Assembly (NCBI RefSeq): GCF_030296555.1
Contig: NZ_AP027728.1
Location: forward strand, 744,001 to 808,000
Reading direction: 5' to 3'
DNA length: 64,000 bases
From: Microbacterium suwonense
GTDB lineage: Bacteria; Actinomycetota; Actinomycetes; Actinomycetales; Microbacteriaceae
Positions 20,041-26,326 of the stretch are shown here, in pieces; positions within the stretch are counted from its first letter, which is position 1, and each line of letters starts with the position of its first letter. The notes under the pieces were generated by a model. It did no database searches and had not been told where the DNA came from. It was given only the letters and a program-made list of their open reading frames with translations. The translations under genes were made by a program, and so were the position numbers.

Positions 20041-21355
20041 CACCGACGGCGCCACGGGCACGCTCAGCCGGCCTGCGGTACGTCTTCCCGGTGCTGGCGG
20101 GCAAGCTCGCGCGCTTCGCGACCCGTCTGCGCGGGGAGGCTCCGCGTTCCCGGGTTACCTCACGAACAAGCTCGCACCGTCGCTGCTGCCCACGCTCGCC
20201 GATCAGTTCCGTTACGGCGTGGTCTTCGTGCTCGGCTCGAACGGCAAGACCACGACCACGCACATGATCAGCGAGGTGCTGCGTGCGCACGGCCTCACGG
20301 TGTTCACCAACCCCACCGGCGCCAACCTGCCACAGGGCGTGACCAGTGCGCTGCTGGCGGATGCGACGCTGACAGGTCGCATCCGCGCCGACGTCGCGGT
20401 GCTGGAAGTCGATGAGGGCTACGCGGCGGATCTCGCCGATCAGCTCTCGCCCGCGGTGATCCTGTCGCTGAACGTGCAGGTCGACCAGCTGTACCGGTTC
20501 TACGAGACCGAGCGCGTCGCCGACATGATGCTCGATGCCTCCACCCGTGCCAGCTCGCATGTCGTCGTGAACCGCGACGACCCGTATCTGAGCAAGATCG
20601 ACACGGACGCGATGCGTGCGCCGGTGTCGTTCTTCGGTGTTGCGCCGGAGATCATCGCGGCCTCCGCACACGGGCTGGCCAACGCGGCCGACACTCGCAG
20701 CGGCAATGCCGGCACGGCCGAGCGCGATGCCTACTCCGAGGTGCGCACCGTCGCCGGGCGCGACGTCACGATCCAAGTGGGCCAGGACGAGGCTGCGGTG
20801 CGGCTTCCTGCGCGCGGCCTGCACTACGCAGCGGATGCGGCGGCGGCCCTCGCCGTGGCCTCACGCGTGCTCGGCGACGAGTTCTCGGCGGACGCCGCGG
20901 CTCGCGGGTTCTCGCGCATGGCACCGGCATACGGTCGCGGCGAGGTCATCCCGCTGCGTCGTGATCCCGCCGGCGAGCAGGTCGAGTTCGTGATGTTCAA
21001 GAACGCGCCGAGCCTGCAGATGAACCTTGACGCCCTGGAGGGAACGCCGGAGCACTCCCTGATCGCGATCGACGAGGGCACGCCCGACGTGTCCTGGCTG
21101 TACGACGTGGACTTCCACGCGCTGGAGTCCGTCGATGTGGTCACAGGGGAGAAGGCCTACCAGCTGGCGCTCGCCCTGGAGCACGCCGGGGTGCGCATCG
21201 GGACGGTCGAGCCGGACATGGAGAAGGCCGTGGCGATGATGCGCGAGCTTCCGCCGACCTCGGCCGGACGTCAGATCTGGTTCGTCAACTACGAGCTGAT
21301 GATGATCGGCCGCAGGATTCTCGGCCACGGCGACCAGGAGGTGGCGCGCCGATGA
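20037..21355 (+). CDS. MurT-like Mur ligase without zinc ribbon, frameshifted in this sequence
   Basis: About 439 residues after adding one G at the run 20133-20136. It has the Mur ligase P-loop [10 protein letters not shown] (about residue 66), [22 protein letters not shown] and the DUF1727 C-terminal domain with [11 protein letters not shown] (Asp near 351, the catalytic region of MurT). Known MurT/GatD amidates the alpha-carboxyl of D-Glu in lipid II. Here there is not one cysteine in the whole protein, so the four-Cys zinc ribbon of characterised MurT is absent, and the usual KNP-G-N motif reads [11 protein letters not shown]. The ligase core looks active; what amine it uses is open. Coupled to sigA and to the GatD-like gene by ATGA overlaps. 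Confidence 0.88.
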
Positions 21356-22118
21356 CGCAGATCACGATCGCGCAGCTGTACCCGGATCAGCTCGGCGTCA
21401 CAGGCGACCGCGGCAATGTGCGCGCCCTGGAGGTGCGGCTCGAGGCGGCAGGAGCCGAGGTCAGCACCCACAGGGTCGGGCCCGGCGATGAGCTTCCGGC
21501 CGGCCTCGACGTTCTGGTGGTCGGCAACGGCCCGCTCTCGGCGATGCGCGGCGTGCACGCCGATCTGATGGGTCGTGGCGACGGCATCCGATCGTTCGCG
21601 GAGGCGGGTGGGGCGCTGCTCGCCGTCGGCGGCGGCGCGGAGCTGCTCAGCCGCGGCATCACCACGCTCGACGGCGAGTCGATCGAGGGGGTGGGGTCTT
21701 CGACGCCTCGGTCGTGCGCACCCGACAGCGCAAGGTCGGCTACATCGTCGTCGACACGCCGGTCGGCCGGGTGACCGGTTTCGAGGACTACGCCAGCGAA
21801 TGGAGTCTGGCCGTGCCCGAGCATGGCTACGGGCGCGTCCAGTTCGGTGAGGGCAGTTTCGCAGTTCTGGATGCCGGGGAGCCCGCTCGCGGCGAACTGG
21901 TGCGGGAGCGGAATGCGTTCGCGTCGAACATCCAGGGCCCGCTGCTGCCGCTGAACCCGGAGCTGATCCGCGAGATCCTCACCGGCGTCGCCGCACGTCG
22001 CGATATCGAGCTGGATCTGACTGTCGGCGTGGGAGCGCTGGACGCCTACGCGGCCGGCGCCCGGTCGGCCATCGAGACGCTCGTGCGCGGCAAGGGCTTC
22101 CACACCATCCAGCTCTGA
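21352..22118 (+). CDS. GatD-like protein lacking glutaminase Cys and His, frameshifted in this sequence
   Basis: About 255 residues after adding one G at the run 21693-21696. The N-terminus (ITIAQLYPDQLGVTGDRGNVRAL) and the GFE and QGPLLPLNPEL blocks identify a GatD/CobQ-type class I glutaminase domain. The nucleophile elbow, ICGGYQLLG in active GatD, reads AVGGGAELLS (Gly93 in place of Cys); the catalytic His of YLHGPLLP is Gln195 (IQGPLLP). No cysteine occurs anywhere. The elbow is upstream of the frameshift and the Gln is well downstream, so neither change is caused by it. It cannot supply ammonia by the known mechanism and may be a structural partner of the MurT-like ligase. Confidence 0.87.
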
Positions 22119-22132
22119 CCCGGAGGCGACAC

Positions 22133-22777
22133 ATGTCAGGCAGCGCGGCTCCGCACGTACTCCTCAGCAGGGACGCACTCGCGCAGAACGTGCGCGATCT
22201 GGTCTCCCGGGGCGGAGCCATCGACCTGCGTCACGACGCTTACGGGCACGGCGCGGCAGAGGTGGCCGCGATCGCCGAGGCCGCGGGGGCGACACTTTTG
22301 ACGGACGCCGACGGCACGGCGTCGATGGAGGATGTGCTCCGGCTCTTCGGCATCCCGAGCGCGGACGGAGTGCTGTCTTCGCGACCGGTCATGGCGCTCG
22401 AGGGCCGGGTGCTCTCGACCAAGCCTCTGCACGCCGGCGAGGCGGTCTCGTACGGGTACACGCATCGCGCGGAGCGGGACACGCGCGTGGCGCTTGTGAC
22501 CGGGGGCTACGCGCAGGGGATCCTGCGTGCACTCGGCAATAGGGTGCGTGTGCAGCTGGGCGAACAGACGCATCCGATCATCGGGCGGATCGCGATGGAC
22601 GTGTGCGTCGTCGATCTCGAAGGAGGCGATGCCGAGGTGGGAGCGCCGGTCTGCTTCTTCGGCGGTACGGGCGCCGTGCGCGGTGCGCTGGCGCGCTGGT
22701 CGGCTGCGACGGGTCTGACGGCGCTGGAGGTGGCCGTCGTCATCGGGCAGAAGGCCGAACGGAAGTGGGTCGCATGA
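22133..22777 (+). CDS. alanine racemase-like protein, C-terminal-domain type, PLP lysine replaced by Arg
   Basis: 214 residues instead of about 370. The start keeps an Alr signature (LRHDAYGHG) but the PLP lysine position is Arg33, and nearly the whole TIM barrel is missing: residue 85 onward already aligns with the C-terminal beta domain. That domain is well kept, with VSYGYTHRAERDTRVAL (Tyr107 is the second catalytic base), the GGYAQG turn and IGRIAMD (Met155-Asp156). It could not racemise alone. GGAGG precedes the ATG, 14 nt after the GatD-like stop, and its stop overlaps the next gene as ATGA. See the paired gene downstream. Confidence 0.85.
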   Translation: MSGSAAPHVLLSRDALAQNVRDLVSRGGAIDLRHDAYGHGAAEVAAIAEAAGATLLTDADGTASMEDVLRLFGIPSADGVLSSRPVMALEGRVLSTKPLHAGEAVSYGYTHRAERDTRVALVTGGYAQGILRALGNRVRVQLGEQTHPIIGRIAMDVCVVDLEGGDAEVGAPVCFFGGTGAVRGALARWSAATGLTALEVAVVIGQKAERKWVA

Positions 22778-23808
22778 GCACGCCGGTGCTGGAGATCTCA
22801 CGCGGCGCGTTCCGGGCGAACCTCGCCGCCGTGCGTGCGCGGCTCGGCGAGTCGCAGCTGATGCTGGTGATGAAGGACGATGCGTACGGCCATGGCATCG
22901 ACTGGGCCGTCTCAGAGGCGGAGGCTGCCGGAGTCTCCTGGTTCGGCGGATATGACATCCCCACGGCGCTGCGGATCCGTGCGCTCACCTCGCAGCGGGT
23001 GTACGCATGGGCCACCTCGTCGGCGTCGGAGGTGGAGGCCGCGATCCGCGCAGGAATCGAGCTGGGCATCGGGTCGACGGCGTATCTGGCGGCCGTCATC
23101 GCGCGGGCCGAGCTGCTCGGCATCCGCACTGCCCTGCACCTGAAGATCGACACCGGCCTGCACCGGAACGGCTTCCGGCCCGAAGACTGGGCGGCCGCGG
23201 TCGGTATCGCGCGCGCGGCCGAGGAACGCGGCAGCGTTCGCATCGCGGGTGTCTGGAGTCATCTGGCAGAGGCCAGCGACGAGGAGGACGACGCCGCGCA
23301 GGCGGTCTTCCTGGAGGCGGTGCGGCACCTGGAGGCGGTCGGCGGGACTCCCGAAGCGCTGCATCTGACAGCGTCGGCCGCGGCGTGGTGGCGCCCCGAG
23401 CTGCGCGGCACGCTGAGCCGGATCGGCGCGTTCTGCTACGGCATCCGCTCCGCAGACGGTCCGGTGCTGGACGGACTCAGCCTGATCTCTCGGCTGGTGG
23501 CCACGGTCGACGCCGTCGAAGGCGACACGGTGCGCGTGGGTCTCGGCGCCTTCCACGGACTGCCGTCGGTCTTGCAGGGGGCAGAGGTGGCGACGCCCGG
23601 CGGTCTGCGTCGGATCGTGCGCATCGACGGCGATGCGACGACTGTGGCGGCGTGGCCGGGCGCGCGGATCGGTGATCGTGTGATCGTGTTCGGTCCCGGC
23701 GACGACGGTGAATCGGATGCCACGGCCCTCGCCGAGCGCATGGACACCGTCGGCGAGGAGATCCTCACGCGGCTGACACCCGCCGTGTCTCGACTGCTCG
23801 GCCCCTGA
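22774..23808 (+). CDS. alanine racemase-like protein, barrel type, catalytic Tyr lost
   Basis: 344 residues. The PLP barrel is complete: VMKDDAYGHG with Lys34, LHLKIDTGLHRNGF, VWSHLAEA and SRIGAFCYGI. The C-terminal domain keeps its length and its end (EEILTRLTPAVSR) but the Tyr motif SYG reads RVGLGAF and the GRxCMD motif is gone. It therefore lacks what the preceding gene retains. In known Alr dimers the Lys of one chain works with the Tyr of the other, so these two products could form one heterodimeric active site. Its start overlaps the first gene's stop, so they are co-translated. Substrate may be alanine or another cell-wall amino acid. Confidence 0.87.
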   Translation: MSTPVLEISRGAFRANLAAVRARLGESQLMLVMKDDAYGHGIDWAVSEAEAAGVSWFGGYDIPTALRIRALTSQRVYAWATSSASEVEAAIRAGIELGIGSTAYLAAVIARAELLGIRTALHLKIDTGLHRNGFRPEDWAAAVGIARAAEERGSVRIAGVWSHLAEASDEEDDAAQAVFLEAVRHLEAVGGTPEALHLTASAAAWWRPELRGTLSRIGAFCYGIRSADGPVLDGLSLISRLVATVDAVEGDTVRVGLGAFHGLPSVLQGAEVATPGGLRRIVRIDGDATTVAAWPGARIGDRVIVFGPGDDGESDATALAERMDTVGEEILTRLTPAVSRLLGP

Positions 23809-24045: not shown

Positions 24046-24227
24046 CTCGGTGCCTCCTCAGGACTCGGACTCTGGTTCGAGGTCGTGCTCAATACAACCA
24101 TGCCCATCAGTGCCGCATGCCCGCTTTGCGGCGTGTTTCGCTCACCGCGTACCCGCCCCCAGCAGGTCTGAGCGCGGGAGAGTGTCGCGACCTGTCCGGG
24201 CATGTCCGTCAAATAGACTCGATGACT

Positions 24228-26326
24228 GTGACCGCCGAGTATTCCGCCCATCATCTCCAGGTGCTCGAAGGCCTCGAAGCCGTTCGCAAGCGCCCCGGCA
24301 TGTACATCGGATCCAACGGATCGCCGGGCCTGATGCACTGCCTCTGGGAGATCATCGACAACTCCGTCGATGAGGCCGTCGACGGCAACGGGGCGAAGAT
24401 CGACGTCGTGCTCTACGCCGATGGCAGCGTGGAGGTCTCCGACCGCGGTCGCGGCGTGCCCGTCGATGTCGAGCCCCGCACCGGACTGACCGGCGTCGAG
24501 GTCGTGTTCACCAAGCTGCACGCGGGTGGAAAGTTCGGCGGCGGCTCCTATGCGGCATCCGGTGGTCTGCACGGCGTCGGCGCCTCTGTGGTCAATGCGC
24601 TGTCCGAGCGGCTGGACGTGCAGGTGGATCGCGGCGGCAAGACCTACGCCATGTCGTTCCGTCGTGGCGAGCCCGGCGTGTTCGCCGACGACGGTGAGCC
24701 CCACCCGGACTCGCCGTTCACGCCCTTCGAGAAGCGCAGTGAGCTGCGCGTGGTCGGCAAGGTCGCCAAGGGCGTCACCGGCACCCGGGTGCGCTACTGG
24801 GCGGACCGGCAGATCTTCACCAGGGACGCCGCCTTCCAGCTGGGGAGCTCGAGAACCGCGCCCGTCAGACGGCCTTCCTCGTCCCGGGCCTTGAGATCGT
24901 GGTGCGCGATGAACGCCCGACCGACGACGGCACCGGGCCCACCGACACCTCGTACCTCTACGAAGGCGGCATCTCGGAGTTCGTCGACTACCTGGCGGCC
25001 GACGCGCCCGTCACCGACACCTGGCGCATCCAGGGCAGCGGCTCCTTCACCGAGACCGTGCCGGTGCTGCAGGCCGACGGGCACATGAAGGCCACCGAGG
25101 TACAGCGGGAGTGCACCGTCGACATCGCGCTGCGCTGGGGCACCGGCTACGACACGACGATCCGCTCCTTCGTGAACATCATCGCCACGCCGAAGGGCGG
25201 CACGCACCAGCAGGGCTTCGAGCAGGAGCTGCTGAAGTCGCTGCGCGGACAGGTCGACCAGAACTCCCGGCGGCTCAAGGTCGGCAATGACAAGCTCGAG
25301 AAGGACGACGTACTCGCCGGGCTCACCGCCGTGCTGAACGTCACCGTCCCGGAGCCGCAGTTCGAGGGCCAGACGAAGGAGGTTCTCGGCACCCCCGCCG
25401 TGCGCTCCATCGTCGCCCAGGTGGTCCGCAAGGACCTCGCCGCGCGGTTCGCCTCCACCAAGCGCGACGACAAGAGCCAGGCATCGATGCTGCTGGACAA
25501 GATCGTCTCCGAGATGAAGGCCCGCGTCTCGGCCCGCGCACACAAGGAGACGCAGCGGCGCAAGTCCGCGCTGGAGTCGTCGTCGCTGCCGGCGAAGCTG
25601 GTGGACTGCCGCTCCAACGACGTTGAGCTGAGCGAGCTGTTCATCGTGGAGGGTGACTCGGCGCTCGGCACCGCGCGTCACGCCCGCAACAGCGAGTTCC
25701 AGGCGCTGCTGCCGATCCGCGGCAAGATCCTCAACGTGCAGAAGGCGTCGATCAGCGACATGCTCGGCAACGCCGAGTGCGCGGCGATCATCACCACGAT
25801 CGGCGCGGGTTCCGGCCGCTCGTTCGAGCTCAGTGCCGCGCGGTACGGCAAGGTCATCCTGATGAGCGACGCCGACGTCGACGGCGCTCACATCCGCACC
25901 CTGCTGCTCACGCTGTTCTTCCGGTACATGCGGCCGCTGGTCGAGGCCGGCCGGGTGTACTCGGCGGTGCCGCCGCTGCATCGCGTGATCGTGATGAACC
26001 CCGGTTCCAAGCCCAACGAGACGATCTACACGTATTCCGAGGCGGAGCTGCACGCGCTGCTGACCAAGCTGCAGAAGGCCGGCAAGCGCTGGCAGGATCC
26101 GATCCAGCGGTACAAGGGTCTGGGTGAGATGGACGCCGACCAGCTGGCGAACACCACCATGGACAAGGGCGGCCGCCTGCTGCGGCGGGTGACGATCGAG
26201 GATGCCGAGGCGGCGGATGCCGCGGTCCGTACCTTCGAGCTGCTGATGGGCAGCGAGGTCGCGCCCCGTCGCGAGTTCATCATGACCTCCAGCGACCGCC
26301 TCAGCCGAGAGTCCATCGACGCCTGA
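24228..26326 (+). CDS. parE: DNA topoisomerase IV subunit B, frameshifted in this sequence
   Basis: About 700 residues after adding one G at 24842-24845. GHKL ATPase motifs (LEGLEAVRKRPGMYIGS, EIIDNSVDEA, DRGRGVPVD, GGLHGVGASVVNALS), then the TOPRIM domain (EGDSALGTARHARNSEFQALLPIRGKIL in parts, DADVDGAHI) and the C-terminal RYKGLGEMDADQL. With ParC it decatenates daughter chromosomes using ATP. TAGACT at 24214-24219 lies 8 nt before the GTG at 24228 and only 2 nt before the alternative ATG at 24222, which favours a leaderless GTG start. Assignment as ParE rather than GyrB rests on the adjacent parC. Confidence 0.9.

Follow-up and report, generated by a model that had tools for sequence, protein, structure and literature searches.

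The active sites of alanine racemase, a homodimer familiar from textbooks, are shared between its subunits. The 64,000-nucleotide stretch of the Microbacterium suwonense genome analysed here (hereafter, the window) contains two adjacent alanine-racemase-like genes, each of which lacks catalytic residues that the other retains, and it raises the question of what two such incomplete proteins could make. We put a probability of about 0.82 on the following answer: the pair encodes a two-subunit PLP racemase with one composite site, which arose through reciprocal half-site loss after tandem duplication and whose gate binds a diamino acid, ornithine, for use in group-B peptidoglycan. We infer the complex, its activity, its substrate and its role in the cell wall.

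The locus would be an apparent natural half-site experiment, with two genes for one site. Living intermediates are unusually clear in this family: tandems with both copies complete, a barrel that is long but dead, a near-bare C-domain and fusions. With the racemase pair, the way in which obligate heteromers evolve is open to direct test. It is also a proposed source of D-ornithine or another D-diamino acid in group-B cell walls. In the passages returned by a full-text literature search, which had subscription papers outside its scope, we found no report of a heterodimeric alanine racemase or of a Microbacteriaceae-wall racemase, and within the same scope no enzyme for the D-ornithine or D-diamino-acid step of group-B walls.

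Layout and catalytic residues of the two genes

The two genes lie head to tail on the forward strand. Gene 1 (22133..22777, 214 aa) is the putative Tyr-donor subunit, and gene 2 (22774..23808, 344 aa) is the PLP-barrel subunit; they share a stop/start overlap, ATGA, at 22774..22777. These coordinates, lengths and overlap agree with the initial annotation of the window, and the motifs that it singled out (Arg33, Tyr107 and GRIAMD in gene 1; Lys34, DTGLHRNG and RIGAFCYG in gene 2) are all found in the sequence. Gene 1 matches the Pfam domain Ala_racemase_C at 1e-28 and carries a sub-threshold Ala_racemase_N trace over residues 13-56. It had been described as having almost no barrel, which overstates the loss: a barrel stub of ~70 residues remains. 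Gene 2 matches Ala_racemase_N at 9.4e-43 and the C domain weakly, at 6.9e-6; its C-terminal domain is reduced. Against the NCBIfam model "alr" (TIGR00492), the two proteins score 103.4 and 108.7 bits, respectively, both below the cut-off of 168.

The predicted fold of gene 2 (pLDDT 94.5, pTM 0.91) has alanine racemases as its best matches in the PDB, with 1vfs_A at the top (TM 0.92); this model, which covers gene 2 only, contains the barrel and the beta C-domain fold of the alanine-racemase superfamily. The initial annotation had also proposed looking for a canonical alr elsewhere in the genome, and one is present (L001), with the Lys, the Tyr, the Met-Asp and the gate Tyr all kept.

In homodimeric alanine racemase, according to the extracts available from PMC3485190 and PMC3245724, each site combines Lys39 of one subunit with Tyr265 of the other. 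In gene 1, the PLP-lysine position is occupied by Arg33 (22229..22231, forward strand), and Lys occurs there in 0 of the 28 gene-1 proteins of the genus. The residues found instead are Arg (18), Ala (7), Thr (1) and Asp (1), plus the protein of G009, which shows a gap when read from its late start; from an upstream start, Ala-Val precedes the DAWGHG motif and the site is Ala. The same 28 proteins all retain, in the genus alignment, the equivalents of Tyr265 (Tyr107, 22451..22453), Tyr284 (Tyr126, 22508..22510) and Met312-Asp313 (Met155-Asp156, 22595..22600), again on the forward strand.

Gene 2 has the opposite set. Its PLP Schiff-base lysine, Lys34 (22873..22875, forward strand), is present in 28/28 genus proteins, as is each of the equivalents of Tyr43, K129, R136, His166, R219 and Gly221; those of K129 and R136 bound the segment from Lys124 to Arg131 (23143..23166, forward strand), and that of Arg219 is Arg216. 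The Tyr265 segment is a gap of 19 alignment columns at the Glu249/Gly250 junction (23518..23523, forward strand) and is missing in 28/28, while canonical Alr has Tyr there in 20/20; the Tyr284 and Met312 residues are kept in 0/28. The motif RVGLGAF, previously read as an altered Tyr site, does occur in gene 2 and sits just after the gap where the Tyr segment is absent. All 20 canonical Alr controls from the genus retain every catalytic residue, with Lys and Tyr in one chain.

Once both chains are counted, the composite site is complete in the alignment. Given the sharing of Lys39 and Tyr265 in alanine racemase, the complementary residues indicate that the two chains jointly supply one complete site and that neither chain does so alone. 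With both chains summed, the pair resembles the homodimeric enzyme (TIGR00492) in its fold, its PLP lysine, its Arg136 and Arg219 equivalents and its trans-acting Tyr265, Tyr284, Met312 and Asp313; it differs in being encoded by two genes, in having no full site in either chain and presumably one site in all, and in carrying Glu or Asp at the gate where the homodimer has Tyr354.

A mechanism can be proposed on this basis. Gene 2 would bind PLP on Lys34 within its complete barrel, and the C-terminal domain of gene 1 would cover the barrel mouth and bring the second catalytic base, Tyr107, with Tyr126 and Met155-Asp156 serving as the putative substrate-carboxylate residues. Each complex would then have one working site, versus two in homodimeric alanine racemase.

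Conservation and probable origin of the split

Downstream of the pair, a ParE/GyrB-like gene (named by eye; 24117-26326) is split between two frames (24117-25088, 24899-26326). Such broken frames point to an assembly with indels, or to pseudogenes, close to genes 1 and 2, and we therefore tested whether the pair is conserved. Both genes are present and adjacent in 27 of 34 same-genus relatives and both are absent from the other seven, four of which are single-contig genomes with a listed completeness of 99-100% (G008, G013, G015, G031). The overlap, as ATGA or GTGA, recurs in 25/27 genus relatives and in 21/22 pairs from other genera, so the translational coupling suggested initially is itself conserved. 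Estimates of dN/dS are 0.15-0.22 for gene 1 and 0.15-0.31 for gene 2, from the 12 closest of 78 pairs for each gene in a set of 13 of the 28 genus pairs, with silent sites near saturation; both genes are under purifying selection. The same complementary architecture was found in 20 other genera in a first sample of the family. The pair's conservation across relatives rules out a frameshift or sequencing artefact: the split racemase pair is real.

For a family-wide view, a gene-2 profile at E<=1e-103 retrieved 92 loci from 91 of 398 genomes, and the upstream DNA of these loci was aligned to canonical Alr for classing. Complementary pairs account for 69 loci (68 genomes, 21 genera) and tandems with both copies complete for 18 (4 genera); the five single-ORF loci, namely two gene1-gene2 fusions (G299, G339) and three ordinary Alr, lie outside these 87. 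Of the 87 loci with two genes, not one had lost the same half-site from both copies. The complementary class is defined by Lys and Tyr, so their counts hold by construction, and the Met, the Asp/Asn and the gate residue are independent features: the upstream copy of the complementary loci has Met312 in 69/69 and Asp or Asn at 313 in 69/69. At its lysine position, the upstream copy has R in 35 loci, S in 7, D in 6, G in 6, A in 5, T in 5, P in 2, C in 1 and a gap in 2. These family-wide counts are lower bounds, and the survey profile favoured gene-2-like proteins. A broader profile matched more genera, with ordinary Alr among the matches, and yielded 20 further loci. Ten of these are complementary and 8 are complete tandems; an ordinary Alr and a locus truncated at the end of its contig make up the rest.

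The pair is thus co-encoded, co-inherited (27 both, 7 neither) and sometimes fused. The initial annotation had read it as an obligate heterodimer with one working site; co-occurrence, complementary residues, erosion of the dead barrel and fusions lend this inference good comparative support.

The erosion of gene 1 is graded (INTERMEDIATES), its barrel ranging in aligned residues from nearly full-length without the lysine to almost absent. Some ~170-196 aligned residues of the barrel, lacking the lysine, remain in part of g79, g102, g106 and g30, ~40-80 in most and ~33-45 in a small set that includes g23, as counted in stop-to-stop frames in which some upstream junk is possible. This gradient is expected if the C-domain alone is needed. 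Fusions of gene 1 to gene 2, in that order, occur as database proteins of 601 aa (P0270), 607 aa (P0285) and 487 aa (P0302); the last begins inside the C-domain of gene 1 and may be a cut frame. The predicted fold of a natural fusion is moderately confident (pLDDT 79.2, pTM 0.66), and the ordinary racemases that this model matched in the PDB align to its gene-2 half alone.

Tandem complete racemases are likely the state before the split. They resemble the pair in gene order and in the acidic gate of the downstream copy, and differ from it in keeping Lys and Tyr in both copies. In Curtobacterium pusillum (L244), two complete tandem racemases are the only two matches; the gate reads TINYE in the upstream copy and TIGEE in the downstream copy, where the catalytic Tyr is still kept, so an acidic gate can occur without the Tyr having been lost. 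From such tandems, each gene would have lost the half-site kept by the other. L244, L313, L328, L329, L352, L358, L360, L362, L364 and other tandem loci have two complete copies and an acidic downstream gate, which is Glu in g53, g57 and g26 and Asp in g33, g48, g93, g29, g56 and g62.

An Alr tree was built from 29 of 33 loci; a barrel-only tree and a C-domain tree bear on how often the split occurred. The barrel-only tree unites canonical and upstream-complete copies in a single clade (SH-aLRT 99), and on well-supported branches no fewer than two changes are needed to account for the split state. In the C-domain tree, gene-1 domains group with canonical and upstream copies (95) and fall into two groups beside two tandem-complete genus sets, with modest support (86, 89). 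Together, the barrel and C-domain trees suggest two parallel splits of the racemase pair.

Gate residue, wall chemistry and proposed substrate

In the extracts of PMC3485190 and PMC3245724, the innermost gate of alanine racemase includes position 354; those of PMC3485190 and PMC4517790, the latter partly citing earlier work, describe a broadened or shifted specificity when Tyr354 is changed. For lysine racemase, a docked model described in the excerpted text of PMC3485190 has the residue at 354 in contact with the side-chain amine of D-Lys. In gene 2 the place of Tyr354 is taken by Glu328 (23755..23757, forward strand), which is Glu in 28/28 proteins of the genus. Across the family, the downstream copy has Glu in 49 and Asp in 19 complementary loci, so that all 68 readable ones are acidic, and Asp in all 10 further complementary loci. 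The gate is likewise acidic in 26/26 tandem-complete downstream copies, which shows it to be independent of the loss of Tyr. Genera differ in whether the gate is Glu or Asp, and no complementary locus combined an Asp gate with Asn at the Asp313 site of the upstream copy; the Glu/Asp pattern may be a mark of ancestry or a code for the substrate.

A carboxylate at the gate would suit ornithine, lysine or diaminobutyrate. Next to homodimeric Alr, the known enzymes nearest to the pair are the lysine and broad-specificity racemases Lyr and Bar (PDB 4dza, 4dyj). They share with it the replacement of the gate tyrosine, and larger substrates are a feature of theirs (PMC3485190, in extract). Their gate residue is Thr or Ala and both catalytic residues lie in one chain, unlike the acidic gate and split site of the pair.

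The wall chemistry of organisms that hold the genes offers a second line of evidence. Microbacterium species have walls with D-ornithine, L-lysine or diaminobutyrate, Paramicrobacterium has D-ornithine, and M. oxydans is among the D-ornithine type strains (extract of PMC10757982). The same source has M. arborescens and M. imperiale as L-Lys species and M. radiodurans as a D-Orn exception. Agreia is listed with L-DAB/D-Orn (PMC5945732, Table 3), Homoserinimonas with D-Orn, Frigoribacterium with D-Lys, and Glaciihabitans, Cryobacterium and Lacisediminihabitans with DAB (PMC7033078, Table 3), and M. invictum appears as lysine-walled (PMC10978784, Table 2), each in the table portion available. Both genes of the pair are present in M. 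oxydans. Gene-2 proteins carry the names of M. esteraromaticum and M. phyllosphaerae, and also of Paramicrobacterium agarici, Agreia pratensis, Agreia bicolorata, Humibacter, Salinibacterium/Homoserinimonas, Frigoribacterium, Glaciihabitans and Lacisediminihabitans, the holders from Paramicrobacterium agarici onward being identified through the name of gene 2 alone. In every named gene-2 protein that we checked (18/18), the lysine is present, the VSYG motif absent and the gate acidic. The Paramicrobacterium agarici, Agreia and Salinibacterium/Homoserinimonas holders match the D-Orn entries in the extracts of PMC10757982, PMC5945732 and PMC7033078.

The link does not run to D-Orn alone, since Frigoribacterium (D-Lys) and Glaciihabitans and Lacisediminihabitans (DAB) hold gene 2. 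Among the 24 named loci searched, of at least 80, Cryobacterium sp. Y11, from a DAB genus, had no acidic paralogue, and Microcella alkalica and Microbacterium sp. Yaish 1 had no pair and ordinary Alr only. A rule restricting the pair to D-ornithine walls was dropped in view of the gene-2 proteins in DAB and D-Lys genera and of Cryobacterium sp. Y11.

The acidic gate, the proximity of its position to the side-chain amine in lysine racemase and the D-ornithine-walled holders together point to a racemase that supplies group-B peptidoglycan with a D-diamino acid. The acidic residue that has replaced Tyr354 would most likely bind a diamino acid, here ornithine, through the amine on its side chain, and the product would be the D-ornithine needed for the group-B cross-bridge. 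Provided that the pair is an active racemase, we lean towards a cell-wall role, on wall chemistries drawn from a few named organisms. The initial annotation had likewise favoured a cell-wall D-amino acid; the acidic gate and the wall chemistry speak for that proposal, while the support that it drew from MurT/GatD is weak. The tandem complete loci are candidate unsplit D-diamino-acid racemases. At somewhat under even odds, we further suggest that an obligate two-subunit racemase arose in Microbacteriaceae, probably at least twice in parallel, and that it and the unsplit tandems are the missing group-B D-diamino-acid racemase, with the Glu/Asp gate helping to set the substrate.

Alternative explanations and neighbouring genes

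A working heteromeric racemase might instead act on alanine, serine, glutamate, homoserine or a range of substrates, and not specifically on a diamino acid. The chemistry of the site is generic, Tyr354 changes broaden or shift specificity (PMC3485190 and PMC4517790, in extract) and the wall chemistries of the holders are mixed, but we think another substrate doubtful because a canonical Alr with a full site is encoded separately in the genome, the gate is acidic and not merely opened in every readable locus, and the pair comes and goes within the genus. It is unlikely that gene 2 acts as a homodimer with a different second base while gene 1 serves as a regulator or chaperone. Gene 2 does have a confident predicted fold as a whole Alr-like protein; gene 1, however, keeps the trans-acting Tyr, Tyr, Met and Asp in 28/28 without a lysine of its own, a regulator would have no need for active-site residues, and gene1-gene2 fusions exist.

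It is general knowledge that fold-type III PLP proteins are versatile, and a PLP-binding heteromer could in principle carry out transamination, decarboxylation or amino-acid sensing. Against such a non-racemase, which we hold to be quite improbable, stand the conserved pair of racemase bases and Arg216, the equivalent of the Arg219 that is proposed to favour racemisation in the extract of PMC3245724. Decay of a tandem duplicate, or an artefact of assembling a genome with broken frames, would fit the interrupted GatD-like and ParE-like frames nearby in the window, yet it is extremely improbable: 27 relatives and many genera share this architecture, both genes are under purifying selection, and the 87 two-gene loci include no case of the same half lost twice. 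An obligate two-subunit racemase with one composite site is the simplest reading of the pair.

MurT/GatD-like genes precede the pair in the window, and the initial annotation took this as a hint of a cell-wall D-amino acid. A full MurT homologue occurs in 7/35 genus genomes, and in one of them (G026) it lies ~7 kb from the pair; at that frequency, MurT/GatD are not general partners of the pair, and they were ruled out in that capacity. The GatD-like gene itself (21352-22118) is split over overlapping frames, 21352-21774 and 21714-22118. The nucleophile of GatD is a Cys; the motif here reads AVGGGAELL, with Gly at the Cys position. Gly also stands at this position in genus relatives L070, L071 and L072, and a search for the nucleophile motif in the remaining three relatives that have MurT did not find it.

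Shortly 5' of a candidate gene-1 start, 21 of 27 relatives have a TAGnnT box, perhaps a leaderless promoter of gene 1. MurT lies one gene upstream in five relatives; G033, G021, G034 and G010 are among the six without TAGnnT, and G011 has both MurT one gene upstream and the box. This distribution is consistent with the pair having a promoter of its own, perhaps a leaderless one, in the majority of relatives and, in a few, being transcribed by read-through from MurT-GatD.
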